Assembly: GCA_033064195.1 (NCBI GenBank)
Contig: JARBJD010000281.1
Coordinates: 1-64,000, forward strand
DNA from: Blattamonas nauphoetae
Lineage: Eukaryota > Preaxostyla > Oxymonadida
Direction of reading: 5' to 3'
Length of the DNA: 64,000 nucleotides
The notes beneath the pieces were generated by a model. It was not told the DNA's origin. It saw nothing but the letters and a program-made list of their open reading frames with translations, and made no database searches. This document shows positions 35,614-63,153 of the stretch, piece by piece. Position numbers and translations under genes: made by a program. The first letter of the stretch is position 1. Each line of letters begins with the position of its first letter.

Positions 35614-35924
35614 TCTGCTTGATTGATCTCATGTATCAAAGGTCTGACTATATCCAATCCGTCGATCCATCTATATCCAATCCCACTCGATCAAACCCAT
35701 CAGTCAGAGTTACGGTCTTCTCGGTCCATTCACACTTCACGTCTTTATTTGCATCACTCTTATTATCCAGGAATGTAAAAATGAGAATTCAAACCTATTC
35801 TGCCCACCGAGTTGATTTTTAAAAGAGAGAAATGAAGACAACCAAAAAAAGAAAGAAAAAAGTGAACTGAGAGTAAAAGAGACGATGCGGTTAAGGAATC
35901 ATCGTGTTCCCATCAGATTTCGTC

Positions 35925-38281: not shown

Positions 38282-38439
38282 TGAATTTCCCTTCCTTCAA
38301 TCTGATTCTAGGTTCATTTCTGATTTTGGAATAAAGAAACTGATGCAAATAAAGACGTGAAGTGTGAATGGACCGAGAAGACCGTAACTCTGACTGATGG
38401 GTTTGATCGAGTGGGATTGGATATAGATGGATCGACGGA

Positions 38440-39009: not shown

Positions 39010-39258
39010 TTTCATCTCAATTAGTTCCATGCTCTGATTCTACCAACTGGATTCCATCAAATATTGATTAAACATCAGAAAATGACAATGTGAAAAACTT
39101 CAAGGTTTTTCTTGGATTGGGAAGGGTGAATAGACCGTTCTGTTCAGAATCATAATTTCAATCAAAGTATGGGGCTGAGTTGATCAGACCAAACTTGATT
39201 TTTTCTTTCCTCTGCTCAACAACATCAAGTCCCCTTCCCAATCTTTCGAACTCTCTCC

Positions 39259-41841
39259 ATGTGCCTACTACTCATTTTTCTTTCGATCTCGGGAGTTTCG
39301 CTTTCCTCTGGGACAATTCAACTCACCGATTTTCTAGGGCTGTTTTGTCAAAAGGACAATTATCATGCGATTGATGATATCCTCCACCTGCCTAATACCA
39401 GAGTTACATGCTTGAATTTTGAAGTGATGTCATCGTATCTATCGTTGAATGGACAGAACGACACAACAATCATTGTCGAACCGTCTCGTTCAAACGAACA
39501 TCCCATCTCGACGCAACAACGATCCAATCAACACATCAATCAAAATCGCCTTTTCTCAGTCAGAAATTCAACATTCTCCATCTCCCAAGTAAGAATGGAA
39601 CTCGATCACAAAACGACAAACTCAGAAGTGCTATTTGCCTCGATTTGTTCATCCATTGCTTGTGCATCACATATTGAGTTCATCCGAAGTGGTTGGGGAC
39701 CATTGATGACTCTTAAGAGGATGGAGGAGCTCCCGAACGTGGATTCGTCAATCACGCTCACGAACTGTACGATCCACTCAAAATCAGGCCGAATGGGGGC
39801 AGTTTTGTCCGATGATAGGGGATTGGAGGGACAAGAAAGGATCTTCCTGTCAATTTTGAACAGCAATGCGGAGAACCAACAGATCATTGGACACGATGGG
39901 ATTGGAGTGGGGGAAGGAGCGGACAGAAGACCATTTTTGGGACTTTCAGGAATCTCGACGGCATTCATCGGAATCTCGTTTTGGAATGTTTCGTCGCTTC
40001 CTGGTTCTGTCCCTTCCGCCTCGCCATCGTTTCGCCAACAAATGATTGGGAGCTCGGTTTGGGGAAGCAACAACCATCTGAGCGGATCGACAGTGCGGGA
40101 CATGAACAGTGGAGGGAGTGTGCTGTGTTCGAACACGACATTCAGCTGGTGCAGCACAACATCCGAAGAGCGACCTTCCTCCTCTCAACGCCATCCTTCG
40201 TCACTCTTCTCCAACGAAAATGTTATCACCAACAAAACTTTTGATGGAAGAGATGAAAATGTCAATTACACTCACCGGAACGTCGCAATCACCACAAAAT
40301 TCGACTACTGTACATTCTAAAACATGAACTACGAAACTGAAGAGCATCTGGACGGCGGATCAGCTTTGATTCTCTCCACAGATGCAAATGATCTAACCCT
40401 TCACAATTCCAAATTTATCAATTGCTCAGTTACATGCACAAAAGTGGGTTTGTCCATCGATGGTGGATGCGTTCTCATGAGAGGATCGTTCTCCCATCGC
40501 ATCAGTTCATCTCTCTCCGTCTCGTCATGTTCATTCACTGATTGGTATCCTGGATCTGTGTCTTACAGCTATCCAAACGGTGGTGGTGTTGGAATCTCGT
40601 ACACATCCACGTCTCACTCCATTGTGAACTCCAATTTCACCCTAACCAGAGGAAAGGCACATCATTCCAACGGTGGATTCATCTCCGTCAAAGTTCTGGA
40701 AGACTCTTCTGCGCTTCTCACAATCTCCAACTGCCGTCTGAAGGGAGATGGACTCACAAGCGACGATTGTCTCCACATTCTCAACTGTGCATTCGTGTCA
40801 GGTGGATTGAGCATCTGCGATACCGAAATTGTCAACACAACCTCCGTCTTCAGAATCAAAACAGTCTCGGGAGCCAGACCAATTGTGGTGACACGATCAC
40901 TTTTTGTCAATGGATCGCTGGTGGTTGAATCAGATGTCATCACACAGCACGACCCTCTCCTCATCGTCGACTGCTCTCTGACCCAATTCAGAGTGGAATC
41001 AACCAAATCATCGCCCGACTTCTGTTCTGTCGGAACTGTTTTCAACACACTTCCCAATTCGTCCATGTATGAACTCATCAATCCAGCAGGCCCATGTTTC
41101 ATGATCTTCCAAAGCTGCAAGTTCGAAGGTTGTGAGGCCAGCAGATACGCAATGATATCCTATTCCAAATCCATCTCTCTCACGATGGACACGTGTGTCG
41201 TGAAAGACTGTGTTGCAACAGGATCAAAATCATCGTTGTTCTCTCTTACAAATTCCGCATTCAGGGCATTTTCTTGCAATTTCACCAACCTCACTGGAAC
41301 GTACTCGACTTTGTTTCTCATCGAGACGAATGGGTCTGTTCTTCTGGAAGATTGTCGATTTGAGCTCGAACAGTCAACTCTGGCAGATTTCCGATTCAAC
41401 AAAGCTTCACCTTCTCTTCTCAACACATCTTCGATCGTTGGCTGCACGTCGAATCGGGAGATCAGAATGACAACTGACGGTAAGACTTTGACCAACTGTC
41501 CTCTCTTCACCGTCATTGAGACTCCAAAAGCAAATGATGAGATCAAACTGAAGGTGGACACGGATGAAAATGGAAATCCGATCGAAACGATGGACACACT
41601 TTGGATAGAAATTCAGTCACTTGTGTCAGACAGTTCGACCATCCTATCGCTCTCCGATGGGTCATTCACCGAAAGTGAAATCCTGTCGATCCAAACAGAT
41701 GTGGATATCGTTGGAAACGGGACAGAATCTGTCCACGTCACACTTGACGAATCATCTCGTCCTCACACAACACAGTTGACAGCAGAACTCGAAGTCAAGG
41801 CTGGTGCCAACCTGAAACTTCGCTCGATGACTATTATTCCT
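39259..41841 (+). pseudogene. receptor C segment 1: signal peptide and first beta-helix
   Basis: The ATG at 39259 starts MCLLLIFLSISGVSLSSGTI, a signal peptide. The following 840 codons are beta-helix rungs (GSVLCSNTTFSWC, DGGSALILS, SCSFTDWYPG, NGGGVGISYTS, CKFEGCEASR) and an extended stretch ending LKLRSMTIIP. One TAA at 40318-40320 interrupts an otherwise continuous frame (TKFDYCTF before, NMNYETEEHL after). The segment ends where the DIRS-type element begins. Confidence 0.75.
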
Positions 41842-41898
41842 TTTAAACAAACCGAGGTTCCTTCCAGCGAGATGTGGTCTGTAATGGGCTTCGGTCCA
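41842..41898 (+). repeat. left terminal repeat of DIRS-type element
   Basis: Begins TTTAAACAAACCGAGGTTCC. The next roughly 50 bases are an almost exact inverted match of 46513-46563. Confidence 0.85.
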
Positions 41899-42152
41899 AA
41901 TTGTGAACCGTATGGAAGAGAAACACTTCAATGAGAAACATTAAACTCCCATTTTTTCCAATCACAGGGAAATCCTCAGTGATGGAGACTGTCGGTTACG
42001 ACGAAAGGAAGGAAACAAAAAAGTTAGTGCTTGTAACAGAAAATCCCCAACGGAGAGCAAAAAACTGTTACAAGTCTTGTAAAAAGAGTGTCCCAAAGGG
42101 GGCACGAAGAACTGGTCATCTGCTTCCTCGCGGCTTGTGGAAGCAGGTAAAC

Positions 42153-42225
42153 GAAGGAACCTCGGTTTGTTTAAAGCACCGCCCCTCCGGTAGGTGCATC
42201 CCAAACCTCGGTTCCTTCCAGCGAG
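42153..42225 (+). repeat. internal complementary region of DIRS-type element
   Basis: The first 23 bases complement the extreme left end of the element, and the next 50 complement the extreme right end. They meet at TTTAAA|GCACC. This composite sequence is diagnostic of DIRS-type elements, where it bridges the ends during circle formation. Confidence 0.85.
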
Positions 42226-42320
42226 CCTTGAAAGAATCAAAAAAGGAAAGAAAGAGAAGTGTATGAAGAATATTAATAGAGCATCCCTGCGATGCTGGGT
42301 AATCCACTTCGACATAGCCA

Positions 42321-45260
42321 CTAGTCCTCTGGTAGACCGTGATTCCCCGTCAGGGGCTGCCACCAAGCCGCGGCGAGGGTCGAGCCAGCGCCCTCGTACA
42401 GTACGGGTCTAGCGTAGTACTCGTCAGCTGTCGTGGAGCCAGGGCTCCAACCCACGTGCGCATTGAGCATTCGTAAGCTCACACGTCTCTCCAGACGCAG
42501 GTAGCTGATCGCCGCATGCTTAATCGTGTAGGGGCCGTAGTTCGAAGCCAGACCGAGTTCAGTGAGAACCATCTTGAGCTTGTCGGTGACTCTCTGCTGA
42601 CTCAGTGCTTTGCCGTTCGTAAAGTCAATCCACACTTTGTCGAGTTCCGCGTAGGGAAGGTCCGCGAGCCGTGGTGTAGCTGCCATGACGTTCTGTCGGT
42701 GCTGACGAAGAGCAACGAACGGTGAGTACTCGGGAGGACCCTCGTCCCTGATGTATCGTTGGTGGTATGCTTGCTGGTTCTGCTTCTGCTTGATTGAGAT
42801 GATCACGTGGTTGATGCCGCCGTCGGTCGTGGGCCTCGGCCATTCCACTCGCTTCCATTTCAATGCGAGAAGTTCTTCCCGACGACAACATGAGTATGCC
42901 AAGATCAACGCCATTGTCCTTGTCTGCTGCAGGTCTTCGTCTGAGGCCGCCGCGTCGTAGGAGTCTCTCGCCCAGGCTAGTAGCAGATTGATGTCCCACA
43001 TGTCAGTATAGAAGGGTTGCGTGCTTCGAGGCTTCTTCCTTGCAATTAGTCGCTGCATTGAGCGGAGAGCTGTCTTCTCTTGAGCAAGACATGGATGAAA
43101 GAGCTGCAAGCTTGCTTTGACGTTCGTGACGAGCTGAGGTGGAGAAGTAGGAGCGTCTCTGAAACGTGCCTCGAGGTAGAGTGCAAACTCCGAAAGAATC
43201 TTCTGGATGTTGGTATCCCGATTGATCAGGAAGGGTTCTGAGTAATTTTTCTCTCCACAGAAGGACTCGAAAAGAGTCCAAGCTCGTTTCCATCTGCTCT
43301 GCGACTTGTATCGCCCTTCTTCCAACTGGATCAGGGCCTCCTCCCAATTGTCCGCCTTGCAGAGTCTCCTGAAGAACGGAGAGGGAGGATCGCCGATCAC
43401 TCGAGGAGAGTGGCTAGTATCTGCCCCGGAGGGAGTTTCAGATCTTCGAGTAGAGTGTCGAGAGCCGCCATCTGGGTGTACTCCCCCAATTCCATCTGCT
43501 TGCAGTTCAGTTGACCAAGAAGAGTTGACCAAGGTTGGCCCTTCCACGAAGGGGTGATCAGGACAGACCGCCGAGGCCTCTGAGTGAGCAGCTTCCTCAC
43601 TACCTTCACGATCAGGAGAATGGGAGGGTGAATCAGAAGATCTGTCATCTCTGACCAATTTAGGAACATCACCCCCCTTCCAGCTCCTGCGTCTTCCTCG
43701 GAGAGAGAGAAGAACGCTTCGCATTGTCTGTTCTTGGCGCTCGCGAACATGTCCGTCCGTGGAACGAAGTTCCATTCGACTCTGAGTTTTTCCATTGCTT
43801 GTGGGAGAAGATGATATTCGCCATGAGGCGGGAGGCGAGATAGCGCGTCCGAGATCCCGTTCGCTTTGCCTGGGAGATGATGGATTGAAGAGAGGCGGAA
43901 ATTGAGGCGTTTGAATGTTTCCAGTACAGTTCTGGTAATGTGTAGGAGTGGCTGGCCGGCTCGTTGTCTTCGAAGATTGTGGACTGTCGCAGTGTTGTCC
44001 GAGAGGAAGGAGACGGATTCGACTTGGGCTGACCTGAGATGAGGAGTCGCTGCGAGGAGGGCCTGACGAACAGCGGCTGTCTCTTTCCAGTTGCTTGTCT
44101 GGCTGCGATCCTTGTCGCCCCAGAGACCGTGGAAGTAGACAGTTGAGCCATTCATCTGGAGAACCGCGCCCCAGCCCGTGGGACTGGCGTCCGTTGTAAT
44201 CAGGGCTTGTGCTTCGGTTGGCCTGAAGGAGAGCGGTAGGTTGTGTTTCAGTCTCCGTTTCCAGAATTGTGTCTCTCCCAAGAGTTGGGGATTCAGTTGA
44301 ACTCGTCCCCTCCAACCGTACCTCCTGACCGCAGTCGAGAGAAAGGAGTGGTGCCGTCTGAGATACAGGCTCGTCTCCGGAATTGAGATCCGCAAGAAGT
44401 TGAGGGAGCCGATTAAGCCCGCAAGGCGTTTGACTGGGGTCTCCTCTCTGTTCAGGCACAGCTTCGTGTGCGATTTGAGGTTGCTGCGAATGTTCCTGCG
44501 TCTCGAATCTGTCAGTCTGACCGTCTGCGTTGAAGAGTTGATCGCCCAACCCAAGAATTCCACCTCTTGGCTGGGCTGGAGTCGGCATTTGCTCTCTGAT
44601 ATCACAAACCCAAGCTCGCGGAGTCTGCTGACTGCCCGTTCTGTCTTCGTGCTGGCCTCTTCCTTGGTATCGCTGATCAAGAGCAGGTCGTCCAAATAGA
44701 AGACGATTGAGATATTCAGCTCCGTTCGGAGCGCTTTGACTGCCAGCTTCATTGTATCTGAGAAGGTGTGAGGCGCTGTTGCCAGGCCGAAGGGGAGGGC
44801 GTTGAATTGGTATGTCTTGCCCTGAAACTGGAAACAGAGGTACTTCCTTAGCGGTTCGGCGAGGTGTATGTGAAGATAGGCAGACTGGATGTCCACCGTG
44901 GTCAGCCAAGCTCCCTCCTTGATCAACGGGAAGGCCGATTGTACACTCTCCATCTTGAAGTGTGACGTCCGGATCTCTCGGTTTAGTCTGGAAGCATCGA
45001 TGATCTTGCGATGCTTCCCTCCCTTCTTTCCGACCAAGAAGGTCGGAAGAATGAGGACTGCCGCTGAGGGAGGTATCTCCGAAACTGCCCCGATCTTCAC
45101 CTCCTCTGCGAGTAGCTGAGCATAAATTTCCATCTGTTGAGGGCTGCCGTGGAATGGGAGGGCCGGTTTGAGTTGCCGGAGTCGGTCGGGCGACTCCGGT
45201 TCCTTCCATTCCCAGCAGGCGCCGGATGCTATTAAAGTCTTCCCACCAATACTCTCCCAC
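42321..45260 (-). CDS. tyrosine recombinase frame of DIRS-type element
   Basis: A 979-codon minus-strand frame. The last 330 or so codons are a tyrosine recombinase (SCCRREELLALKWKRVEW, then YTIKHAAISYL and ADEYYARPV near the end). The first two thirds overlap the reverse transcriptase frame in a different register and have the Pro/Ser/Gly-rich composition of an overlapping frame. Such overlap of the recombinase and reverse transcriptase frames is usual in this family. The true start of the recombinase may therefore be well inside the frame. Confidence 0.8.
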   Translation of the reverse strand: MGEYWWEDFNSIRRLLGMEGTGVARPTPATQTGPPIPRQPSTDGNLCSATRRGGEDRGSFGDTSLSGSPHSSDLLGRKEGREASQDHRCFQTKPRDPDVTLQDGECTIGLPVDQGGSLADHGGHPVCLSSHTPRRTAKEVPLFPVSGQDIPIQRPPLRPGNSASHLLRYNEAGSQSAPNGAEYLNRLLFGRPALDQRYQGRGQHEDRTGSQQTPRAWVCDIREQMPTPAQPRGGILGLGDQLFNADGQTDRFETQEHSQQPQIAHEAVPEQRGDPSQTPCGLNRLPQLLADLNSGDEPVSQTAPLLSLDCGQEVRLEGTSSTESPTLGRDTILETETETQPTALLQANRSTSPDYNGRQSHGLGRGSPDEWLNCLLPRSLGRQGSQPDKQLERDSRCSSGPPRSDSSSQVSPSRIRLLPLGQHCDSPQSSKTTSRPATPTHYQNCTGNIQTPQFPPLFNPSSPRQSERDLGRAISPPASWRISSSPTSNGKTQSRMELRSTDGHVRERQEQTMRSVLLSLRGRRRSWKGGDVPKLVRDDRSSDSPSHSPDREGSEEAAHSEASAVCPDHPFVEGPTLVNSSWSTELQADGIGGVHPDGGSRHSTRRSETPSGADTSHSPRVIGDPPSPFFRRLCKADNWEEALIQLEEGRYKSQSRWKRAWTLFESFCGEKNYSEPFLINRDTNIQKILSEFALYLEARFRDAPTSPPQLVTNVKASLQLFHPCLAQEKTALRSMQRLIARKKPRSTQPFYTDMWDINLLLAWARDSYDAAASDEDLQQTRTMALILAYSCCRREELLALKWKRVEWPRPTTDGGINHVIISIKQKQNQQAYHQRYIRDEGPPEYSPFVALRQHRQNVMAATPRLADLPYAELDKVWIDFTNGKALSQQRVTDKLKMVLTELGLASNYGPYTIKHAAISYLRLERRVSLRMLNAHVGWSPGSTTADEYYARPVLYEGAGSTLAAAWWQPLTGNHGLPED
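43397..45133 (-). CDS. reverse transcriptase/RNase H frame of DIRS-type element
   Basis: 578 codons. Reverse transcriptase motifs occur in order: KHRKIIDASRLNREI, LTTVDIQSAYLHIHL, YQFNALPFGLATAPHTFS and IVFYLDDLLLIS (the active-site YLDD). The RNase H part follows with ALITTDASPTGWGAVLQ, ETAAVRQALL, FLSDNTATVHNLR and PGKANGISDALSR. Lengths and order are as expected for a DIRS-type polyprotein. Confidence 0.9.
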   Translation of the reverse strand: MEIYAQLLAEEVKIGAVSEIPPSAAVLILPTFLVGKKGGKHRKIIDASRLNREIRTSHFKMESVQSAFPLIKEGAWLTTVDIQSAYLHIHLAEPLRKYLCFQFQGKTYQFNALPFGLATAPHTFSDTMKLAVKALRTELNISIVFYLDDLLLISDTKEEASTKTERAVSRLRELGFVISESKCRLQPSQEVEFLGWAINSSTQTVRLTDSRRRNIRSNLKSHTKLCLNREETPVKRLAGLIGSLNFLRISIPETSLYLRRHHSFLSTAVRRYGWRGRVQLNPQLLGETQFWKRRLKHNLPLSFRPTEAQALITTDASPTGWGAVLQMNGSTVYFHGLWGDKDRSQTSNWKETAAVRQALLAATPHLRSAQVESVSFLSDNTATVHNLRRQRAGQPLLHITRTVLETFKRLNFRLSSIHHLPGKANGISDALSRLPPHGEYHLLPQAMEKLRVEWNFVPRTDMFASAKNRQCEAFFSLSEEDAGAGRGVMFLNWSEMTDLLIHPPILLIVKVVRKLLTQRPRRSVLITPSWKGQPWSTLLGQLNCKQMELGEYTQMAALDTLLEDLKLPPGQILATLLE

Positions 45261-45306
45261 AGTGGGAGCCTGTCTGACAGTCTCCCAGTTATCTTCGTGT
45301 CCGCGA

Positions 45307-46506
45307 CTAGTTGCCCCCGAACCTGCCGTTCCTGTTGTTCGGGTTCCGACCGTTGTATTTTCCGGGGGGACGGCGGAACCCCCCTCTGGTTGAGAAACTG
45401 GACCCAGTGTTCAAATGCGCGACAACTGTTGGGGCGACCATCTGTGTCGCATGATCCAGGTTCGTGGCGGCGAGTTGGAATGGTTGTGGAGGTGCTACGA
45501 GGAGATTTTCTGCCACCTCCGCCGGTCGCGGAATATCCATTGCTGTAGCCATTGCTCTGAGGTCTGATTGGAATACATAGCGAGCGTGGTGGGAGCGGGA
45601 TGCTGCGTCTGCTGTGTTTAGCATCACGTCAAGGATCTTGGGAAGGATCGCTGAGTTTCCGAGTCTGGACACTGCTTGGTAAACATCGCCCAAGAGAGCG
45701 ACGGAAACAAGAGCTGACTGCGTTGCCATCTTCAATAAATGATCTTGTAGGCCATGTGGGTCTGTAACAGGTGAGATTGTAGCTGCAAATTGGGCTTGTA
45801 CGCCGAGGATCGTCTGCCATCGTTGCGAATCCCTGAACAGCTCGTCACGCAGCTGCGGGGCTAAAATAACATTTGTCCAGTCTCCGGTGAATTTTGGGTG
45901 CCTTCTCTTTAACTTCTGTTTGAATAAACGAGCTGGGTCTGGGGACGGGTGATAGTCTGAAGACGTGGTGTCGAAATCGTAATACGATGAGGAGTCCGAT
46001 GGTATTGTGATTGTCGGTATTGGCTTGCTGCTTGCTTTCTCAGCCTTCTTTCTTCGTTTCGCTTCCGCGTTGAGCTGGGCGATGGCGAAATCTCGCGCTT
46101 TCGCCCTTCTTGTTTTCTTGCGTCTACTGCGCTCGCCCGAAGAATTGCCGCGAGAAGGTGATCGAATATGATGCGGGGATGTCAGGTCTTCGACAGATGA
46201 CTCTGAAGATGAATCTGAAGACGAATCTGTGTCTGATTCTGATCGCGCTTCCGGGCGTTGCCGCTTCACCTTCTTGATTGGGCTCAAAGGCTGCTGGAGG
46301 GGGGCAGCTGTCTGAGCCTGCTGAAGCGTCGGTGAGATGACCAAAGCCGGTTGAGGTGGTTGAATGTCCTCTTTCCTGTCAGCGGAAACGATCGATGGAT
46401 GCGCTTCCACTAATCCCGAATATATGAGATCGATCACGTCCCGAGGAATAGAAGGCAACGGGGCGGACGAAGAAGGTATTGAATTCTCAGAAGTGTTATC
46501 TGACAT
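45307..46506 (-). CDS. gag-like frame of DIRS-type element
   Basis: 399 codons, the first frame from the 5' side of the element. The N-terminal half is Ser/Lys/Arg-rich (SESDTDSSSDSSSESSVEDL, then RSRRKKTRRAKARDFA). The C-terminal half is helical and ends in a Gly/Arg/Asn-rich tail (GFRRPPGKYNGRNPNNRNGR). Position and composition fit the gag-like protein of DIRS-type elements. No zinc knuckle is seen. Confidence 0.65.
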   Translation of the reverse strand: MSDNTSENSIPSSSAPLPSIPRDVIDLIYSGLVEAHPSIVSADRKEDIQPPQPALVISPTLQQAQTAAPLQQPLSPIKKVKRQRPEARSESDTDSSSDSSSESSVEDLTSPHHIRSPSRGNSSGERSRRKKTRRAKARDFAIAQLNAEAKRRKKAEKASSKPIPTITIPSDSSSYYDFDTTSSDYHPSPDPARLFKQKLKRRHPKFTGDWTNVILAPQLRDELFRDSQRWQTILGVQAQFAATISPVTDPHGLQDHLLKMATQSALVSVALLGDVYQAVSRLGNSAILPKILDVMLNTADAASRSHHARYVFQSDLRAMATAMDIPRPAEVAENLLVAPPQPFQLAATNLDHATQMVAPTVVAHLNTGSSFSTRGGFRRPPGKYNGRNPNNRNGRFGGN

Positions 46507-46512
46507 AAGATC

Positions 46513-46593
46513 AATTTAGACCGAAGCCCATTACAGACCACATCTCGCTGGAAGGAACCGAGGTTTGGGATGCACCTACCGGAGGGGCGGTGC
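46513..46593 (-). repeat. right terminal repeat of DIRS-type element
   Basis: The inverted match of the left terminal repeat covers about 50 bases. The outermost 30 bases (ending GGAGGGGCGGTGC) are complementary to the second half of the internal complementary region at 42176-42225. Confidence 0.85.
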
Positions 46594-48538
46594 TCCTCAC
46601 CCTCCACTCCACTTGTCGCAATGAACGAGGAAGGATTCATGTCCGTGAAGATTGTTGTGGTTCGTGACCAGCAGAATCGAACGAAGGAGTTGTTCTGCAT
46701 GTCAGCAGGAACAACTCGCTTCTCCCACTCTCGTTTCTCTTCCATTGATGGTTCGACTGCGTTGATTGTTGTGTCAGGAAGTGGATCAATGTTCCTATCT
46801 GACACTGTCTTCTTGAACATCTCTCGCTCTCACACAGAATCTGTCAGTGGATCAGTGCAAAGTGGGAGTTGTGTGGAGGCAAACACGAGTGGCTTGATCT
46901 CGATCACATTCTGCAAAGTTGGAGGATGCTCATCGAATGGTCGAGCAGGAGCGATTGACATTGTGTGGAACGACACAACGAGCCGAGTTGAAATTGAAGG
47001 ATGCCAATTTGATGAAAACTCGGCGCGATCAGAACTAAACAAGGAAGCGAAGGGAGACGATGTTGTTCTGAAAGGATTCTCAAACGGGCGACTCACCATC
47101 AATTTCACAGCGATTGAGTCCTTCTCCACACTCCCATTCCTAATCAATGATTCCCATCCACACGTTCCACCACCTCACACTCTCCACTTTTCACAGAAAG
47201 GGTTCGACATGCCCCTCGCTTGGTCCTCTCCAAACAGGCTCTGCGAAACTCGCCTGTCTGAACTCACACTCCAATTCCTCCTCGGCTCTCGTCTCCACAA
47301 CAATGTCCACACTGCCATTTTCACCGAGGTCAAGCACAACGAAACGATGATTCCATTCTCTCTCAAAAACGCGTCCGTCAATGTTTATCTGAGAACTGGA
47401 TCGCAAGTCATCGTTACGCAACCCAACAACGAGATATTCGGGACTCTTCTCAACTCATCACTTGAACTTAGATCTCTCAACCTTTCATTTTCAGAGCTCA
47501 AAAACACATCTTTCTCCATCGATCAAGATTCGTCGATTTCACTGAGGGAAGTTGACATCACTTTCATCAAGAAAACACTCACCCATCCTTTCATCAATTC
47601 GACAGGGCGATCCACACTCTTCTGGGTTGTCGACATCGACACCGGTCTCACTCTGAAAAATACCTCTTTTGTGCGACATGTTCGACAGGCGAATGAAGGA
47701 TCATTCATTTGGGACGGCACCCCATTGACATCTGTTTCACTCACGACTCAGCCATTTCTTCATCTCGAAGGAATGAACATTCTTCACATCGAACAAGATT
47801 CTTTTTCAAAAATCACGAACATCAACTCGTCGTGCGATGGAAGTTTTCTGTTCGCAAAACAGTCAAATGTTACCATATCAACTCTGACAGTCTCGTCGTG
47901 CTCGGCACAACGCGGCGGTTTCGCATTCTGCCGTTTGTGCAACGTGACAATCGTGAAGTCTGATTTCACTTCATGTTCAGCACAGCACGGCGGAGTGATC
48001 TTTGTGGAACTCGACAGTGTCTGTCGACTCTCGTCAGATTACACATTAAGCACTTACTCACTCTTCACAAACTGTAAAGCAAACACGAAGGATGAGAATG
48101 GAGTGGCAGTCGGGAGAGGAGGAGCGATTTTTGTGAAAGGAACAACAACTGCGGAGACTCCAGTCAATCTGACACGTATTTTATTTGAAAAGAACTCGGC
48201 AGTGTTCGGAAATGATGTTTTTGTTGAGAACTCTGTTCTGGGAAACCAAGGACCTGATCGTCTGAAGGGATGCAAAGGGGAATCCCGGAGTGATTGGCCT
48301 CACCTCGAAATCGAAGGCATCACAAAAGAAGAAAACGAAGTTGAATGACCACAACTGCCGATTTTCAGTCTCAGAATGCAGAACTCTTCCATTTGCATTC
48401 CGATATCTAGACACTCTCTATCCAAACGACACTGTGTATCTCCATTCTGCTTTTCTGAATGGCAATTTCACCTTTGATTCAATGTCTTTCGAAGACGAAA
48501 ACCTGTTGCTCAGAGGGCAAATCAAAGCTGAGCTGAAC
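46594..48538 (+). pseudogene. receptor C segment 2: beta-helix blocks
   Basis: The frame resumes in phase right after the DIRS-type element (SSPSTPLVAMNEEGF). About 580 codons of beta-helix follow (GGCSSNGRAGAIDIVW, SCSAQRGGFAFC, SCSAQHGGVIFV, GRGGAIFVKG). Near 48345 the coding character moves to the next frame: the old frame ends ENEVE, and the new one reads NDHNCRFSVSECRTLPFAFR, a helix-entry motif. The segment ends at GQIKAELN, where the next insertion lies. Confidence 0.75.
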
Positions 48539-49641
48539 AGTGCGAATCCACGATGACTACGCACTTTTGAGTTTCGTGATAATATGAAAACCATAAAAGT
48601 TATTTGTCTTTGTGATCAATTATCATGTCATCTTTTTCCTGTTTTCGAATCCAGGAGCGTGAAACATGTCATTTTTTCTTTGAGCTGACAATACGTTCTT
48701 GATAGTGAGATGATGGTTATGTGAGAGGGAGATATCTGAGAGAGTTCCTGTTTTGATTCGCGAATATGAACTAGAAAGATCAATAACCGTTTGATCGAGA
48801 TATCCGCTCCTTTTGTCTCCTGGCAAAACAGCACTTTTCATGTGTCTCACACGCTTGTCTAAATGATCTTCATCGAATAAAGTGCTGTTTTCTGACAGAA
48901 AGACTTGCAGAGTCGTCTCAAATAATAACCAATTTCAACTACAGTTGTCCGCTGATGAAAATAGAGTGATAGAATGGTAAGATGTGACTATAGAATCTAT
49001 AAACGATGAATTGAGTGGATGTAACTTGAAAAAGAACGGCAGACTCACGAAGTTTCGTCCAGTTGAGAAAAGAAGGGATATGTGGTGATTCGTCTGTATC
49101 TCTTCAGATTGACTCCATCCATTCTCAGACAAAATACTCCAAATGATAAGTTTCGTTGAAAGCACATTAACGCGTTCCATTATGTACTTCGAATGGAATT
49201 TGGCGAAGAAATGGCATGATTTTGAATAGGCAGTTTGGATGTGCGAATTTTGCAGAAGAATGTGTGAGATGAATTGAAAACATAGAAAAGATGCTGGATT
49301 GTGTTGTCATAGTATCAATTGTTGGGCATAAGGAGGTAATTTAGACATCGACTTTCATCCAACACGTTTCACAACGAGAAAGGCTGTTTTGATGAGATCT
49401 TTTGATCTGAAGGGGACATATTAGAACTTTCTGAATGAGAATCGAGTTGACATGTGGAGAACTGTTTCTCAAAAGTGTTTTCTGTCATGATGAAATTTCA
49501 GAAATGGGCGAGAGAATGTTCAGGAACAAGGAACGAAATGGCAAAATAAAGGTGTGAGACGTGATCTCCTCATCATTATCTTTGTCTTGACTCAGTCTGG
49601 GGTTAATTTGACGATAGTGCGAAGTCATCGTGGATTCGCAC
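48539..49641. mobile_element. 1.1 kb TIR element in receptor C (E2)
   Basis: Ends of about 24 bp are inverted copies (GTGCGAATCCACGATGACT then CGCAC). They are flanked by AAC (48536-48538 and 49642-49644), with a fourth base differing. No coding sequence is recognised, so it is non-autonomous. The receptor frame reads in phase from the left AAC codon to the right AAC codon (KAELN then STVPPASSM). The superfamily is not determined. Confidence 0.75.
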
Positions 49642-51244: not shown

Positions 51245-51820
51245 GGCATGGGTCCATTGTGTCTGGTGGTTTTGAAAAGAGTCTGGCTCAACGGGTTCAA
51301 TGTGTCTGGCGGTAGATTTCTGAAGAAATCTGGAAGGTATCACAATATAGTTTTCATATATGGTAGTGATGGGATTCATAGAGAGGGTGTCGAAGGGACA
51401 GAACCACATAAAAGTCATGGAATGATGAAATTCGTCCTGTCAATGGTGATCTGAAAAAACCCCAGGTTTTGACTTTATGGATGGTGATTTTGAAAAATCA
51501 TATGTTTATCACATAATAATGTTCAAAACAGACAATAATCGAAATATAGTGAACCTACAAGTCCAATGAAGTGATAGTTATTAAGGATTTCGAATCGGAG
51601 CCTCACATTCTTGAAGGGCAGATCCTCCCTTGACTGCTCCGCCTGTAGCAACAGTTGGGAAAATAGATGCCAAGAATGTTATCAATCGATTGTGTATGTT
51701 CCAACCCTCAGATGCTCGACTTTTGGAGGTATCTCACCACCAGACACACTGGACCACCGCCAGACATATCGGACCACCACCAGATACAATGGACTTCGCC
51801 AGACACACTGGACCCATGCC
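51245..51820. mobile_element. 576-bp hAT-type MITE in receptor C (E3)
   Basis: Both ends read GGCATGGGTCCA(T/G)TGTGTCT inward and are flanked by a perfect 8-bp duplication, GTTTCACT (51237-51244 and 51821-51828), the hallmark of hAT elements. The right subterminal region repeats CCAGACA/TGGACC units five times. No transposase is present. Confidence 0.9.
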
Positions 51821-53290: not shown

Positions 53291-53573
53291 GACAAACGAG
53301 TGCTCCTCAACACAGCGAGTACCTCGAAGTGGGCTGGCCGATAAAAAGATTCAAAGAAACAAAATAAAAGGTTTTATCTGTTTCCGAATTACCCAACGGG
53401 GAACTAGAAGTTCACAGGTTGGTTTTGCCCTCCGAAGAGGGCTGTTGAGGAAAACAAAAAAGGTTATGTGGGCAAGAAATCCCTAACAGGGAACAAAAAC
53501 TTGCCAAATGGTCTAATGAGACGAGGTGAAGTGAAAAAGCCAGAACTTGCCAGGTTGTGTGGCAGAGTTGCAG

Positions 53574-54629
53574 GTTGAGGAGCACTCGTTTGTCTTGGAG
53601 GAGTTCCCCTTGGTCATAGTCCTCCGATTAGGCCGGACTTGTTCATCAGGTAGGACAACAATACTTTCTAGTTGCATGATAATTTCTTCATTTCGATATG
53701 CGAGTGTTGAGTAAAAATTGGTATTTCTGAGAAGAAAGACACGATCAATGGGTGCTTTTTCAAATCCGAACCTGAATGGACATGCATCACAGTTCTCGGA
53801 GGTCTAAACTCACATCAGCATTGATGTTAGTGATGTGTCTCCACGCTATATTCATAATGTGCACCTTGACAGACCAATTTTGAGGTTGAAAATGTTCTTG
53901 TTTTCATTCTACGAAGGTCTTCTCCGACCCGCAAGAATCACGCATCCGACGACCTTTCTGCAGGATAAAGGTCTTTGGATGTTTGTATCTCTCATTCCTC
54001 TCAATAAGATGGAATCTGTTCACTTCCGGAATGGCATGCTCAACAAGATCTCCAATGGCATTCATCCCAACTACTTGGATCTTGGAATGATGGTGTGTTC
54101 CTCAAACTGCCTTATGATTGCAATTTTAAGGTTTCCTCACTTTTTTCACAGTAGATCCGAGATGAGGCAAACAGAATCTCATTCACATTCTCCATTCCAA
54201 GCAAAAATGATACAAGTCGTCTGAATCCGCTTCAATTGGTTGCGAGAGGCTGAAAACAATCAATTGGCACCCACAAAACTCTCCGTCGTCAACTTCTTCT
54301 TCGATGGATCCATTCTCATCCTCGATGGGGGGATGAACTGAACATACATCTAAATAGTTCCAAATGTTATTTAATCACTTCACCTCTTTGCTCGATTGGC
54401 TATTGTGTGAGAATAGCAAAAATGGATGAGGGAAGTGAACAAATACAATGAATGGTCTGATCGTTCTCAAACTCTTTGTTGAAGCCGTAAAGCGATTATC
54501 AATCAACTTTACAGTCAAATAAGGAGGTATCCTTGACATACCTACCCTTTGTCCGACTTGATGAACAAGTCCGGCTTGGTCGGGGAACTATCACTCCAAG
54601 CCCAAACGAGGGCTCCTCAACACAGCGAG
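53574..54629 (+). repeat. internal complementary region of E4, split in two
   Basis: 53574-53616 complements the left end of E4 and the first bases of the right end. 54591-54629 complements the rest of the right end. The two pieces are separated only by the 974-bp nested element and its TCA duplication. Confidence 0.75.
53617..54590. mobile_element. 974-bp TIR element nested in E4 (E5)
   Basis: The ends are TAGTCCTCCGATTAGGCCGG and the inverted TAGTTCCCCGACCAAGCCGG. Both continue ACTTGTTCATCA(G/A)GT(A/C)GGAC. It is flanked by TCA (53614-53616 and 54591-54593). The 3-bp duplication limits it to superfamilies such as PIF/Harbinger or CACTA, but the termini match neither closely. The 130-codon plus-strand frame inside (53835-54224) has no recognisable motif. 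Confidence 0.8.
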
Positions 54630-57418
54630 TGTTGAAAGGTAAGCTAAAAGAGAGAGAAGTAAAAAAGGAGTAAGCCTTTTCGCTCTTCCTTCCAAGAAAT
54701 GAGAGACTAGGCCGTGACCCCCATCGGGACTGGCACCTCCTGGAGAACAAGTTCTGGTTAAAGATGAAGACAAGAAACAGAGGAGGAGGGCTTGGCGATC
54801 AATCACCCGCACCACTGTCTCCTCGATCAGCCCTCCCCCACTTTGGTCCTCATTGTGCTCACCTCTCGTCCCTTCATCCTCATCTCACTTTCAAATCGAG
54901 AGAGGGCAAGCCTTCACGAGAGTTTCCTTCCGATCCTCCCATGTTGATTGACATTCAAATCAACATTGTTCTATTGATCCACTCGATCGCAATCGCGATA
55001 TCTATTCACCCGTCTCCTTGTTCGCATTTCAAATCGATTCCTTCTCAACCAAGGCGAGAGACCCATTGGTGGCGCCGTGCACTTGCTCCTCTTCCACAAA
55101 CCCCACTCTTTCAATCCAGAGAACAACATACCGAGACTGTGCATCTCCACACTTCACTCCCTCTGTCAACCCCATCTATCACCCTCAAACAAACTCTCTC
55201 CTTCAGACTCTGCACAGTCATCCCTGTGGAGATATTCTCACCCATATAATCCACACATCCAGTTCACTTGCTCCCCATCACTTCGCCAATGGTGATCTTT
55301 TCTTTCCACGACTATCCTCCAAATTGAGAACAAGTGTGGTGATGCGCTGCTCACGTTGGCCACCGACATCTTCTTCACAGTTTCTCACACGTATAAGGAG
55401 GGACGCGGGAAGTACGATGGGCCGAATGCGATCTGGTTATGACAGTTTGTCCTGTGGCATATTCACACTCCCATCGCTGACACCTCCATTTCAGATATCC
55501 ATCTCCCTCATGTCCATTGATTGATGATCCCCTTCATCGAGACTCCTTTCCAAAGAATGTGTCAGCGCATGTTTGAGAAGAGTGACGAACGTTGTTTGTT
55601 GTCAGACATCCACCCTCTGCATTTCGGAGTTCCTCGCCGACACAGCCTCGATCAACAGTGTCCGTATCCGTCGTTGGACATTGGCATGGGTTAAACAGCA
55701 GAGCATTCTGCCCCTTTTTCATCACATCACTCGAAGCTAGCACCTTGGAGAAAAGAAAAGGTCCACAATCTTCCGGGTGTCTATCTCAAGATGACCAAGA
55801 GAACGATGTGGGCAGTTCTACGATTCTCATTCGCAGTCCGAATCCTTCTGATTCCAGAGAATATCTGATTGATTTCAACAGTGTTCTTGAAACGAAGAAG
55901 CAGCCCCTCCTGAACTCGTATTAACTTCGTTTCTGATCCACCCTCCATCGATGTCTTTAATTGAGCTCCAATACTACTTCACTCCCATCTCTACTCAATA
56001 GGACAGTTCGCTTGTTCACAATCCCTGTTCCAAAGGGATCTTTGGAGAGTTGCTCATTGTCGCAACATCGTGATGGGGTGTAGTGAATCTGGTCGTGTTC
56101 TCGTCTGGTCAGTCGAACATGTATTTCGATCCCACCAGCGAGCGGAGTTGACAGAAAATGTACCAGATATCGATTGAGAAAACACTTCAAACTTCTGTTG
56201 AGCGAATGCTGAGTGAGGCGACTGCGATGGAATATCGATCAAAGACGTTTTGATATGGTGGTGTCACGGACCGTCAAATCAGAGATGAAGATGGAAATCT
56301 GGTTCCACTTCTCTTCTCCCAATTCAATCTTCCACGACACCAAACGATCCTTGTGTCGTTGAGGCAATCGAAGATCGGCCTATTACATCTGTCACGGCTG
56401 CCAATCAATTTAGCTTCTGGATCATCTTCCTTATCGATAACGGATCCTCATTTCCTCCTGGGAGAAGTCGCCTCAGAGATTGACACAGAAGACCTATTCC
56501 GTTGATGTCTTCCGCCCTGTCCACACACTGTCCAACTCGACAGGCTTCCTTCTCCTCACTTCGGCATCGCATTTTACTCGCCACGAGCACCTCGTGTTTC
56601 ATTTTGTTGATGCTGTACATGAAGCGAACAGGAAAGGGAGTATGGATTGATCGGTTATTCTGCCACTGGCACCATTGGAGAGGGTAGTTGAGAGATTAGA
56701 TTGAAGACTTGATTTCGACTTGGCCTGATATCACAGTTTCTGAACATTTCACACTTCGATGACCTCCATTCAATTCCTCTTGATAGAGACCGTCCGAGAG
56801 AGGCCTCCCCCTTTTGGTGTGAGGGAGATTGGCACTATTGTGGATGAGAGGACGTTAGTGAGCAGACAGGAGTCGCCGATGTTGGTTGTACTCATCCTCT
56901 CCAAATGTGTCTGTTGTGTAGTTAATGTCGTATCCCGCGAATGTCGCAGACTCGGTGAGTCGGATTCGCTCCTCGTTATCGCTGTCAGGTGCTATCTTCC
57001 CTTTCTGAAGAATGGTCTCACAAGCAGCAAGTTTTCTGAATATACTTCTTGACCACTTCAGGCTTGACTTCCATATTCACTGGTTTTAGAGCCGCTTCAG
57101 AGTGTCGTTCCCAAAGTTCGAGTGAAAGCTCCTCTGTACACCTTCGCAAAGTATTGTTCAAAGTTCGTTCCCGTTGTTCATTGATTGTCCAAGAGTAGTG
57201 AGTTTCTCCTGGGAAAAGTGTTATTTTTCTCGTGCTTCTTGTGTCGAATCTGTTGTGCGTATTTTAAATCCGCTTGAAATTTCTGCTTCACTTCCCGCAA
57301 TTCATTCTTCCGACCGTGCCGAGGGGATTGCAGATCGCAGTGTGTCCTCTCAAGCTCTTTGTGGCTTGAATTTTTAAGTACCACAGGAATGTGGATAGAA
57401 TCGGAACTATCTGCCTTC
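54630..57418. other. E4 interior, unrecognised decayed coding
   Basis: Coding-like pieces occur on the plus strand (for example GDALLTLATDIFFTVSHTYK at about 55340-55400 and DEDGNLVPLLFSQFNLPRHQ at about 56285-56345), separated by interruptions. I do not recognise a domain. No intact gene is supported. Confidence 0.3.
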
Positions 57419-57433
57419 CGGGTACCTCAATTT

Positions 57434-57570
57434 TCAGGGGAAAAACTCGATCACAGGGGAAAATCTCGATCACAGGGGAAAATCTCGATCACAGGGGAAA
57501 ATCTCAAACACAGGGGAAAATCTCAGTCACAGGGGAAAATCTCGGGCCACAGGGGAAGAATCTCATGGAC
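57434..57570 (+). repeat. tandem array of 19-20 bp units
   Basis: About seven imperfect copies of CACAGGGGAAAATCTCGAT. The units drift towards CTCAAA, CTCAGT and CTCGGGC at the inner end. The inverted counterpart (about 60487-60622) has one unit fewer. Confidence 0.85.
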
Positions 57571-57599
57571 AAGGGGATTGAAGGAGAAAGAAATTTTGA

Positions 57600-57678
57600 A
57601 CATGCGTGGTTCAGCGGTAAATGCGTTGGACTTTAACACGGCGGACCCTGGTTCGATTCCGGTCATCAGCATTTTTTT
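57600..57678 (+). repeat. tRNA-like Pol III module (pseudo-tRNA or SINE head)
   Basis: An A box (TGGTTCAGCGG, 57607-57617) and a B box (GGTTCGATTCC, 57650-57660) are spaced as in a tRNA, and a run of seven T follows. The T stem pairs, but the acceptor, D and anticodon stems do not, so a working tRNA is unlikely. It is probably a tRNA-derived promoter of a repeat. Confidence 0.6.
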
Positions 57679-57823
57679 GACTTTTTTGATCTTCCTGAAT
57701 TTCTCACAAATATGTTACATTCTCTTCGTTTAACGACTTTTCGAAACATGAAATGAAACAAAATCTGAATTGTGCGAAGATCCCTCCAAATCTTAGATCC
57801 ATTCCAGTGATCGTTCTCGCTTC

Positions 57824-60253
57824 ACTGTTCGCACACATTGCCTAAATCTATCTCTCCTCATCTGTGACCCTGACCGAGTGACTCTCGTGTTCGATCACAC
57901 ATTCATCTCTCGTTGACAGAGATTCTCTCACTTTTCTTCAAACGGTTGTGTGCATGCAGCTCGACCTTCTAATGACCATAAATGGATGTTTATCTTCAAG
58001 GTTTGTGAGTCTTGAACTCAATTCATCGATGTTTGTCTTCAGGAGAGACGCTTCACTTGTATTAGAACGCAGATTCATTTGCCACTTTCATCCATGGGTA
58101 TGTGCAGGAACAAGATTGAATACATCCTTCTCTCTCTTGAATTGGTAAAGATTTTGTTTTCATTCTCTCTTTCTTTCGAATATGTGTCTCTTCTATCCAT
58201 AACTTCCATTTTCTCGTCTGATCTTCATTCCATATCATTTGTTTCTTCCTCGTTCCTTCAGAGGCGGAAAAGTTACACACAATAATACAGTATCGGCAAC
58301 TTTCAATCAACTGAGGACATCAATCTCGCAAACATCGTCTCCTCTCCAACCATTCACCGGCATCAATGTCAGTGTTGGCACGGGCAAAGCACTGTTCCCA
58401 ACTCTTTGTCAATCGCATCTTAAACTCTTCATTTATTCGGTTGAACAATCAGCTGTCATTCATACCACCACACTCTCTTAATTAGCTGCCCTCGAATCTC
58501 AAGAAATCTTGAGCGGAAACAGTGGATTCACCTCGTCTGCAGAAGCCCTCTCTTCCTTTCAACATCGCTTGGAGTGGTTAACAGGAGGAGTGGATGTTGT
58601 CCAAACGACATTCTCCTTTCAAATACCTCCTGCAACACAAGGATCTTCCACGATCCCTGAAATTGATTCGAACATAGTGATTTCTGTCGCAATCAACCTC
58701 TGAGAACAATCTACGCTTCATTTTGGTAGAATGTAATGTCCTTTCAGTCGAAATAACCATACCCCTCTCCTCGAAGAACAAAGGATCAAATGTATCTTTG
58801 AGAGCGATTTGCAAGGCTTAGAAGAGTACCATTTAACTCCAACATTTGCGGCAATTGTACAAGGCTTCTTAATCTCCGCTATGATGTCAAAGTCCGACAC
58901 CCTTCTCGTTGAAGTGATCAGCGACGAATCTGCCAATGACGAGCGACAAAACGGCTGGAAGCACGCAACGAGTAGAAAATGGGATGAAGAATCGAAAATA
59001 GAAGAGATCGCTCACAAAGGAGCGGACGAATGAGGAGTGGGTCAACGAGGTTCCTGCCTCGTGGACGATCTTTCGTTTTGTAGGGCTTCAATCACATTTC
59101 ATCAAGAATGTGAAAGCATCGGCAGATATTTGAACATGCACTATCTTCCTTTCAGTTTGTTTCGCTTATCAGAACAGTAAACAAAGAGAATGAGCGTGAT
59201 CAGTCACCCACAAGTAAAGTTGACATTTCACACCAATTTGGACAAAGGAACGAGAAAGAGAATCAAAGTAAATGAAAGATCAACGGGATCGTTTCATTTT
59301 CAGTCCATCACACGCTCCTCCTCCTATTTCAGCGCAATCCTCACTCTCTTCTCTTAATTCACACTCCACTTCTCACAATCGCTTCAAAAGTCTCAACACT
59401 TCCTCAAAATACTCAGGCAACACTCTCTGCCAGCTCCTCCTCTCCCACACAGCGAGCGAAGCAGTGTGTGTGCTTCTCGCCTTCTGTGTCGCTCTCCGCG
59501 ATGACGAAGAGGAGGTGATGTGTGGACGAAGGTAGCGACGGCGTGCTGACGAGCGAGATGGCGCAGTCGGAGTCGGAACTTGCTGCGGGCAGTGCTGGTT
59601 TGGGCGATGTTTGGCTGTCGTCGCTCTTTTCGGGGCTTTTTGAGGGGCCGCAAGGGGTGCTTTGGTCGCGACGGGAGGGCGAGGAGTGGGTGGATGGGGG
59701 AGAGTGAGAGGGACGGGAAGGATGGCGTCGGTGGAAAGAGGGACGAAAACGATGCCAGCTTGTTCCTGAGTGAGGAGAAGGTGAAAAAGAGATGAAATCA
59801 TGTGCAGGATAAAATACGCAAACCAAGGAGCGTGAATGCTGACATTTCGACAGTTTTTGTGAGATAATCAAACGAAACAGCTCAGACACAGATTCTCTTT
59901 TCAGTAAACAGCCAGGACGTGTCTGAGGAGTGCGTAGAAACTCTTTCGCATCTCCCCACAAAGGATCTTCAACCTGTAGAAGATTGAAGAAGTGATGATT
60001 CGAACAGTAAAGATTATACCTGGCGAAGACAGGAAGATCATCGATGACACAGCTGAGTCAGTTGGACTCCAGAATCGAGAACAGATCTGGAAATAGATGA
60101 GAAAATGAGGTCAAACAAAGAAAATGAAGATCGTCAGATGTCGGCTGCTCTCCTCCGGACAGGAGTTCCATCTCCAACCTGTGATCATTGCCTATATCTT
60201 TTTCTCCTTTCGATTTCTCTCAGATCAGCGAATACTTAACCGCAGCGAGAACG
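57824..60253. other. foldback spacer, unresolved
   Basis: Plus-strand coding-like pieces occur at about 58239-58703 (EILSGNSGFTSSAEALSSFQ) and 59272-59710 (TASEAVCVLLAFCVALRDDE, followed by a Glu/Gly-rich tail). Some resemble the style of the charged tail of P2, but no domain is recognised and frames are interrupted. Confidence 0.3.
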
Positions 60254-60386
60254 ATCACTGGAATGGATCTAAGATTTGGAGGGATCTTCGCACAATTCAG
60301 ATTTTGTTTCATTTCATGTTTCGAAAAGTCGTTAAACGAAGAGAATGTAACATATTTGTGAGAAATTCAGGAAGATCAAAAAAGTC

Positions 60387-60466
60387 AAAAAAATGCTGAT
60401 GACCGGAATCGAACCAGGGTCCGCCGTGTTAAAGTCCAACGCATTTACCGCTGAACCACGCATGTT
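60387..60466 (-). repeat. tRNA-like Pol III module, inverted copy
   Basis: Inverted counterpart of 57600-57678 with the same A box, B box and terminal T run (seen here as A's). The two copies are practically identical, which points to recent duplication. Confidence 0.6.
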
Positions 60467-60636
60467 CAAAATTTCTTTCTCCTTCAATCCCCTTGTCCAT
60501 GAGATTCTTCCCCTGTGGCCCGAGATTTTCCCCTGTGACTGAGATTTTCCCCTGTGTTTGAGATTTTCCCCTGTGATCGAGATTTTCCCCTGTGATCGAG
60601 TTTTTCCCCTGAGAATTGAGGTACCCCTGCCTTCCT

Positions 60637-62150
60637 CACGACAGCGATGGTGAGATTCCTGTCTCGGATTCGAGGCATCAATGATGGACATGTTCCAGAT
60701 TAGGTTGTCGTGAAATTTCTCACGGTAATCAGGAAGAACATGATTCGATGGAAAATATTGACATGAGGACGGTCCTGGATTGTCTGCATTCCAGTGAGAC
60801 AGTCCATAACAACAGCGTCTGGCTAGCCTGATGATAATCATACATCTTGGTTACGCAGTTTGTGCGAGATAACCATGTGATATCCCTTGTCGTCCCTCCA
60901 AATTTCTGGATTTGGAGGCCACGAGTTGCAGATAACGAATGGGATGCAATTCTTCCCATGAGATCAACTGTCCTCCCAGTATCATCGTTCATAGTTGAAG
61001 AAAACTCGAAGTTGAACCCAGAAACTGAATTGGGACGTCTTAAGTGTCGATCTGGCGTAAAATTTCTCCAGGCGATCGAAATGTTCCATCTGTCGGTCCG
61101 CACCCGTTAAAACCCAACATAAACGATCGTGGTCGATTTATGAAGTCTGATGGACGTCCAGACTCAGCTTGTGTTCGATCGGATCGTCGGACATGATCCA
61201 CTGGTATAGCCTCTTGTATACGAACGTCAATCATCTCTAGAGCTTGTGTTGTGACGCCATGATGTGTATGATTCTTGGGGATGGTGATATGTGCCATCAT
61301 TCTGATTTATCTCCTCACTGGGTGGTGATGTTAATGAGCAGCATTTCCCGAATGAGATTCTCCAGCGTGAGAGAAATTTGGGCGTTGTCCGCATTGTAAT
61401 GTGTTTCGAAGATGAGTCTCGTAATATTATTAACCTTTGAGTTCGTGGGCGCAACTTAACGCATCAACTTGGGTGGGCAACTAGTTCAGTCCTTTGGCAT
61501 AAACATGAGTCCTCGAAACGACTCGGAATTGGCGTTTTGTACGACCTCCCCAGCGATCGGAATGATCAATGTCTTCATTTGTCCAGAGCAGATGTCCGAT
61601 CCCACGGCGTTCGACACGTACGAAATATCGTGTGTCACTGCAAATCGCCTCAAGTGAATGATATTTGATTGTGAGTATCACTCGCATTCGTGTGAAAGGA
61701 CGCTAAACGCCTTGAATCAGTCCTTTCTTGTCGAACGGTGTTTGAACTAGAAACATGGGCTATTCGACAAAATTTTGACTTCTGTGAAAGAAGCTGATAT
61801 AGGGTCCAATGATGTCCGAGATAAGTGACACCCTGCTCCACCTCCTCGTCTTCCTTGTTCGCTGCGCTTGTCGTTTCCCGTCGGTGAATTTTAGTCACCT
61901 GGACTGTCCCTGCATCTTATTTCGGGTTGTTTCGCCTAAGTGAACCTCGTCGCAATCAACTCCAGTGATTATGAGGTGTAGTTTGTGAATGAACTTCTTC
62001 GCTTGAGACAGAAATGACTGCATGGTATTGGAATGACGGAACTGCTAGTTCGTCGTTATGTCCATTCTTGACAAGGAATTGAGAAAAATATTTTGACTCA
62101 CAGCAATATAGTTTTGTAAAAAGACGAGGAGGTCAATATATTTTGTTTTT
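60637..62150. other. E4 interior, decayed minus-strand coding
   Basis: A minus-strand stretch from about 61690 to 60700 has coding character when read across interruptions (pieces such as SLTLENLIREMLLINITTQ and WVLTGADRQMEHFDRLEKFY). I cannot assign it to a family. Confidence 0.3.
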
Positions 62151-62154
62151 AGAA

Positions 62155-62238
62155 TCTCAGATCGGCCAGCCCACTTCGAGGTACTCGCTGTGTTGAGGAG
62201 CCCTCGTTTGGGCTTGGAGTGACCAAGGGGAACTCCAA
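62155..62238 (-). repeat. right terminal repeat of E4
   Basis: The complement of this end matches the left end at 53285-53345. Its outer part also matches the split internal complementary region. Confidence 0.8.
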
Positions 62239-63153
62239 AAGAAGACGATGCAAGAAAAGCCGAAAGCGATGAGCGAGCTGGACGAATGCCAAATAGAGGT
62301 GAAAGAAGAAGAAATGGACGTCAATTCGACCCTCCGACCACTCCTCAACACGTCCGATGTGACACTTAATCCCAACTCTTTCAACATGATCAGCAACGGT
62401 GTCGATCAGAACCACTCGCAATTCTCGTCTCTTCAAGCACGTTTCATCGAACATATCGATGTCTTGAAATGTGAATGCGAGCCAGCTGTGATTCGTGTTG
62501 ATGCGAAGAAGACACTTTACTCAGCACTCCATGTTGAGAAAGCACTTTCACTGCCGAAAACAGAGATCAGAAGACAGTTGGTGGCTGGACTTGAGCGACT
62601 CCTCCAACACAATCCTTTCAGCGACGCCCTCACCCAACTCTCGTCTCACTGGATCCTCGTTGACTCTTCTGGCTCAGTCTGCCTGAAACTGGATCAGAAC
62701 TTGAACGAGACGGATCTGACCGAGCAGCAGATTGCGAATCGGAAGAAGATGAGAGAAGAGGACCATCGTTGGAGTGCACCAGAACAGATCGATGAAGAGG
62801 ACCGAGATCAGAACAAGGACGAGAAAGAACCACAAGCAGAGCAATATGATCCTCTGAAGGCGTCAGTTTTTAGGCTTGGCCTCGTCTTGTGGGAATTGGA
62901 GACTGGTCTTGTGCCGTTTGGGGAGCTGGATGCAGTGAATGCGAGTCGACAAGTGAAAGGAGGCCAAGTGCCACTGATTGAGAATTGTGAAGACCCATCA
63001 TTAGCGTCGATTGTCGAAGCGTGTCTCTCTTACGATCCACACGACAGCCCCTCGCTCTCCACACTCAACACATTCCTCTCGTCCCCACCCACACCACTCG
63101 ATCCTCCTCCACTCCAGCAACAACCAATCGCGTCCATCCCTGTCACCGGTTGA
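62233..63153 (+). pseudogene. receptor C segment 5: cytoplasmic pseudokinase
   Basis: The host frame resumes in phase with LQKKTMQEKPKAMSELDECQ, completing the basic stop-transfer stretch begun before the insertion. It resembles WRRKQKKRLTNNMEEM in receptor A. A 230-residue kinase-like domain follows. It keeps a hydrophobic ILVDSSGSVCLKL strand pair, WSAPEQ (the APE motif) and SVFRLGLVLWELETGLVPFG. It lacks a glycine loop, has LTQLSSHW where HRD is expected, and has no DFG. Catalytic activity is therefore unlikely. The tail is proline-rich and ends IPVTG at a TGA. As an isolated frame it has an ATG at 62248 and could be annotated as a separate small protein, but context shows it is the cytoplasmic end of receptor C. 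Confidence 0.8.

Follow-up and report, generated by a model that had tools for sequence, protein, structure and literature searches.

Four direct and two nested transposon insertions in one receptor gene of Blattamonas nauphoetae, a probable case of early gene decay

Oxymonads are gut endobionts, and the published assembly of the oxymonad Blattamonas nauphoetae, as its report describes it, was built from Nanopore and Illumina data and has 879 contigs with a total of 88.54 Mb (PMC10703272). We have analysed a window of 64,000 nucleotides of this genome (C203:1-64000 in the 88.3 Mb and 837 contigs that were searched), which carries an interrupted receptor gene, C, on the forward strand at 39259-63153. 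About 8.5 kb of it is host sequence, in five pieces: piece 1 from its ATG (39259..41841), piece 2 (46594..48539), piece 3 (49642..51244), piece 4 (51821..53284, the first 8 bp being a second target copy), and piece 5 (62233..63153), with the juxtamembrane part and the kinase-like C-lobe. The four interruptions that the original prediction had placed in this gene are real, with ends now refined to 41842-46593, 48540-49641, 51245-51820, and 53285-62232.

The pieces belong to one gene. In the DNA alignment they line up, in order and collinearly, with an uninterrupted paralog, L059 (C568:242000-251800), which is open from its ATG over 2858 codons. The aligned stretches of C are 39252-41842, 46596-48347, 48345-48517, 49646-51238, 51831-53283, and 62236-63154, with identities of 77–83% per piece and 75% for the one of 173 bp. 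Around insert 1 the two sequences match without a gap, and L059 is open at all four insertion places of C. The contig of L059 carries another paralog, which is likewise uninterrupted as DNA (one match at 86% covers 1-8567 of the 8591 query positions) and open across the 3.7 kb read. The original prediction had taken the host segments for one gene and had named alignment as the way to recognise segments of different genes; the alignment has placed all of them on one paralog. The public protein BLNAU_9124 of this species matches 94% of the L059 frame at 100% identity. Since this public model has 2698 residues and is thus shorter than the open frame, the annotators saw either an intron or another start; in our own reading of the open frame, the L059 gene would have no intron.

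Judged from its sequence, receptor C belongs to a family of large beta-helix/kinase-like proteins that has many copies in Blattamonas nauphoetae, and its relatives are publicly labelled right-handed beta helix. The C-terminal kinase-like domain in piece 5 matches PF07714 (1.3e-06; 28.4 bits against a cut-off of 23.1), with only the second half of the profile covered (128-257 of 258). HRD and DFG are kinase motifs, and neither was seen in the aligned stretch of the domain that was inspected. Transmembrane families match the paralog, all below their cut-offs, and the end of host piece 4 likely holds a transmembrane stretch. In the annotated paralog P0003 (BLNAU_13430), a stretch of some hundreds of residues appears by eye to be repeated before the transmembrane part.

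Two further receptors, A and B, lie in the window (16900-23700 and 23880-29500, minus strand). They are mutually close (main blocks at 80% and 94%). Both have their coding sequence divided between two frames, and B is without ~1.2 kb present in A; they may be broken too, or may have an intron. We have considered them as reference copies for C and set them aside as too distant (~34% over the C-terminal ~550 residues). As A and B are only remote relatives, copies suited to a comparison with C have to be taken from other parts of the genome. The window also holds a 2.8-kb stretch between 122-bp inverted repeats of 97% identity (35645-38452), perhaps another mobile element, which ends just within a ubiquitin-like open frame (38407-39009; PF00240, two stretches). 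Finally, a 5.9-kb stretch at 2895-8771 lies between inverted repeats of ~200 bp and encloses the frames 3514-4275 and 6102-6854. By eye, the former has a repeat style like that of these receptors, and receptor pieces could possibly have been captured here by a mobile element.

Insert 1 (41842..46593, minus strand) is a DIRS-like retrotransposon of 4752 bp with coding frames of 402, 743, and 1029 residues on the minus strand. It has a reverse-transcriptase match at 44543-45028 (RVT_1, 2e-24, over the cut-off) and an RNase H match below the cut-off (RT_RNaseH_2, 0.00097), and we take the two together as the reverse transcriptase and RNase H of a DIRS1-like element. The tyrosine-recombinase match is weak (PF00589, E 0.001, 19.3 bits against a curated cut-off of 27.1), and no recombinase match was found for the element among solved structures. 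Its ends are inverted and are joined by an internal complementary region, in which positions 312-334 complement 1-23 and positions 335-384 complement 4703-4752, both at 100%. There are four other full-length copies in the genome at 98%; in the five full copies read there is no target duplication, and their right flanks share only a T. Since no methyltransferase domain came out of the Pfam search of its three long frames (E 0.01), we name the element DIRS-like only.

Inserts 2 and 3, both on the forward strand, are short elements with TIRs and target duplications of fixed length. Insert 2 (48540..49641, 1102 bp) has a 19-bp TIR and a 4-bp target duplication, which carries one mismatch in the window (AACA/AACT) and is perfect in 5/5 other copies; six full copies, the window's included, are found among the 49 matches listed. 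Insert 3 (51245..51820, 576 bp) has a 12-bp TIR and an 8-bp target duplication, GTTTCACT, and the duplication is perfect in all 12 copies read, including that of the window, among the 42 matches listed. Duplications of 8 bp recall hAT-type elements, to which insert 3 may be related.

Insert 4 (53285..62232) is composite. Its outer element, 4a, is DIRS-like and measures 4755 bp without nested elements, and its pieces (53285-53616, 54591-57419, and 60627-62232) are contiguous in L056/L057. Nested in it are element 4b (53617..54590, 974 bp), with the 3-bp target duplication TCA, and element 4c (57420..60626, 3207 bp), with long inverted ends (371-nt arms) and the 9-bp target duplication CTGCCTTCC. 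The frames of 191, 190, 214, and 172 residues in the insert have no Pfam match, and as no long coding frame was found in 4a, this element is probably non-autonomous. At this site the host exceeds the paralog by one codon, which leaves a 3-bp uncertainty about the element end. The original prediction spoke of four unrelated elements. There are indeed four direct sites, occupied by mobile elements with copies elsewhere, but the fourth insert is three elements, so that six insertions are present in total, and inserts 1 and 4a share a common architecture, though their sequences did not match each other in the searches for copies. One more copy of 4a, at ~5433 of L058 (C416), is cut short and followed by TTAGGG-type telomere-like repeats near the contig end.

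The original prediction also stressed that the host coding sequence resumes in phase after each element. The pieces do stay in phase, but this is not a sign of tolerance, since it follows from any clean insertion. That is, setting aside an element and one target copy restores the old frame whatever the length, so the phase shows only that there have been few further indels, and a special in-phase mechanism was rejected on this ground. The insertions in C are clean. Left in place, three of the four shift the host frame (insertion length plus target duplication, modulo 3, is 0, 2, 2, and 2 for inserts 1-4), and every forward frame of every element has stops, 7 to 124 per frame.

Besides the insertions, the host sequence shows the one stop and two frame changes that had been predicted. 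The stop is an in-frame nonsense codon, TAA, at 40318-40320 on the forward strand, where the aligned paralog residue is Q; the frame changes are a 62-bp deletion at 48347 in piece 2 and a loss of 40 bp, in two parts, at 50558-50562 in piece 3. The remaining small gaps in the base alignment of C are compensated nearby or lie at piece ends. Residue comparison shows that P0003 keeps both of the stretches absent from C, P0046 the first, and P0010 the second (the annotated P0010 protein differs around the first), and L060 is open over both. As far as tested, the deletions are therefore C's own. Compared with its uninterrupted paralogs, C thus carries four direct insertions, one nonsense codon, and two frameshifting deletions as disabling changes. 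When the public proteins were searched with host pieces 1 and 2, one of the two gave BLNAU_20210 (512 aa; window 40321-41934), which begins after the nonsense codon and ends inside insert 1. Starting past the one and running into the other, it is a chimeric gene model.

Most of the elements are young. We have compared the changes private to the window copy for inserts 1, 2, 3, 4a (middle part), and 4c. There are none in insert 2 (0/1102 sites, 6 copies) or insert 3 (0/576 sites, 12 copies), two in the middle part of 4a (2/2822 sites, 4 copies), and three in 4c (3/3148 sites, 7 copies), where each set of copies includes that of the window. Insert 1 shows 75 private changes in 4730 sites among 5 copies, and its four full-length relatives show 6-14. 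We do not accept all of these 75 differences as a measure of age, since they are mainly synonymous in two parts of the element: 19/22 in the 402-residue frame, which partly overlaps the RT frame, and 20/24 in the section of the 1029-residue frame that is free of overlap. This suggests that the differences arose mostly before landing, as the lineage diverged while active. The bias is weaker in the overlapping frames (18/33 in the RT frame and 22/51 in the whole 1029-residue frame), so that part of the changes could be later decay, and insert 1 could be the oldest insertion.

The host sequence gives two further measures. On host pieces 2 and 3 (1106 codons), dN/dS is 0.39 for the C branch (bootstrap 0.31-0.48) versus 0.48 for two open paralogs (0.39-0.58), and between C and L059 over all pieces it is 0.40 (2743 codons). 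The dN/dS of C is not raised over its paralogs. One nonsense codon corresponds to ~0.4% neutral change, with a 95% range of about 0.01-2.2%.

Other paralogs are interrupted too. At 14 loci, including the window, insertions of at least 300 bp were counted by hand from match coordinates (23/504 candidates scored in the match list), C255, C523, and C679 being left aside as partial or internally duplicated, and C19, C832, C252, and C57, which came up in the search for a second copy of C, as outside the match list used. There are 11 insertions in total; five loci are hit (window 4, C258 3, C127 2, C210 1, C4 1) and nine have none, and since C445, C428:36933, C127, and C4 are incomplete, the counts are lower bounds. 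If 11 insertions are thrown at random on 14 loci, one locus receives at least four with P = 0.08, and a variance over loci as large as observed has P = 0.014. The four hits put C at the high end without making it a clear outlier in the family, as another copy has three. The largest insertion of C258 contains a reverse-transcriptase match (C258:52593-53048). For 23 element copies, three of the window included, the frame spanning the empty site has 41 to 1000 residues, a range shared in part with the flank controls, and we draw no conclusion of coding-frame enrichment.

Based on the above analyses, receptor C has very probably been inactivated recently and has then collected young transposons, in an early stage of ordinary gene decay. 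In this course of events, the gene would have become dispensable, or the first insertion would itself have inactivated it. Transposons with near-identical copies in the genome, namely two DIRS-like retrotransposons and two small TIR elements, would have inserted independently, and two further elements would have landed inside the second DIRS-like element. The alignment of the host pieces would be preserved because these events are recent. The loss of function, this order of events, and the neutrality of the insertions are what we infer from the state of the sequence. The original prediction left a choice between rapid accumulation after recent loss and tolerance of the insertions. The former is favoured, given the 0-3 private changes in four elements, the single nonsense codon, and the dN/dS that is not raised; the latter finds no support, given the element-borne stops in every forward frame and the frame shifts by three of four inserts.

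It is unlikely, though worth weighing, that the region is an insertion hot spot, or that the elements prefer this family, as opposed to landing in an arbitrary neutral stretch. Of the six elements, two lie nested within the fourth insert, the 576-bp element of insert 3 is also present in the paralog C210 (C210:47019-47594), and the insertions are more clumped over the loci than random (P = 0.014). Against this, the 576-bp element has different 8-bp target duplications in the 12 copies read. The clumping fits dead copies collecting insertions, which would yield the same pattern as a hot spot, and a hot spot is compatible with recent inactivation followed by insertion.

Much less probable is that the gene tolerates its elements, which would be spliced from the transcript or excised from the DNA by a programme, with the protein still being made. 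GT..AG pairs do occur near every junction, 27/59 of them frame-preserving, and a dN/dS that is not raised would suit a working gene. However, chance alone would make one third of such pairs frame-preserving, a share that 27/59 exceeds only a little, and the pairs depend on one another. The nonsense codon and the two frameshifting deletions sit outside the elements and would remain after their removal, and the BLNAU_20210 model, obtained with one of the two host pieces searched, enters insert 1 instead of bridging it. Introns at the junctions were rejected, since L059 is open there and the GT..AG scan is uninformative. That the elements are removed from RNA or DNA precisely enough for some receptor product to be made, so that transposons would here be at an early step towards becoming introns, is even harder to credit. 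About as improbable is an assembly artefact, in which element sequences were misjoined into an intact gene: although the first assembly, according to its report (PMC10703272), was built from long error-prone reads alone, and the repeats are near-identical, a misjoin would not create target duplications, which match at inserts 3, 4b, and 4c and with one mismatch at insert 2, the DIRS-like inserts have unduplicated ends like their other copies, and no second, empty copy of C was found among 40/42 candidates scored, the next-best long match of piece 2 being at 81%.

Overall, with recent loss followed by accumulation as the better reading, receptor C is an ordinary, though instructive, example of how a gene begins to die. 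It is a well-preserved record of this stage in a genome rich in young transposon copies, since it can be set against a collinear paralog without interruptions and shows four direct and two nested insertions with little further decay. The public protein BLNAU_20210 is a piece of such a gene and runs into a transposon, and the paralog set could serve to measure insertion rates in broken versus unbroken copies. The main text of PMC10703272 has no word beginning with "transpos", and literature searches found nothing on this locus, which does not establish the case as unpublished.

Compared with DIRS1-like retrotransposons, whose architecture is described in PMC3266345, inserts 1 and 4a are alike in inverted ends, an internal complementary region, and no target duplication; the region complementary to both ends is seen fully in insert 1, and in 4a for the right end. 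Insert 1 is also alike in its RT, and its weak tyrosine-recombinase match lies below the curated cut-off; it differs in that the methyltransferase domain was not found, while 4a differs in that no long frame was found. Inserts 2, 3, and 4b resemble non-autonomous TIR DNA transposons in their TIRs, target duplications, and near-identical copies elsewhere. At the level of the gene, the closest likeness is to transposon-riddled pseudogenes of multicopy gene families: C is a broken copy among uninterrupted paralogs with several independent and nested insertions. It differs in carrying four direct and two nested insertions in a host frame that is almost clean, and it is the most densely hit of the 14 loci counted.
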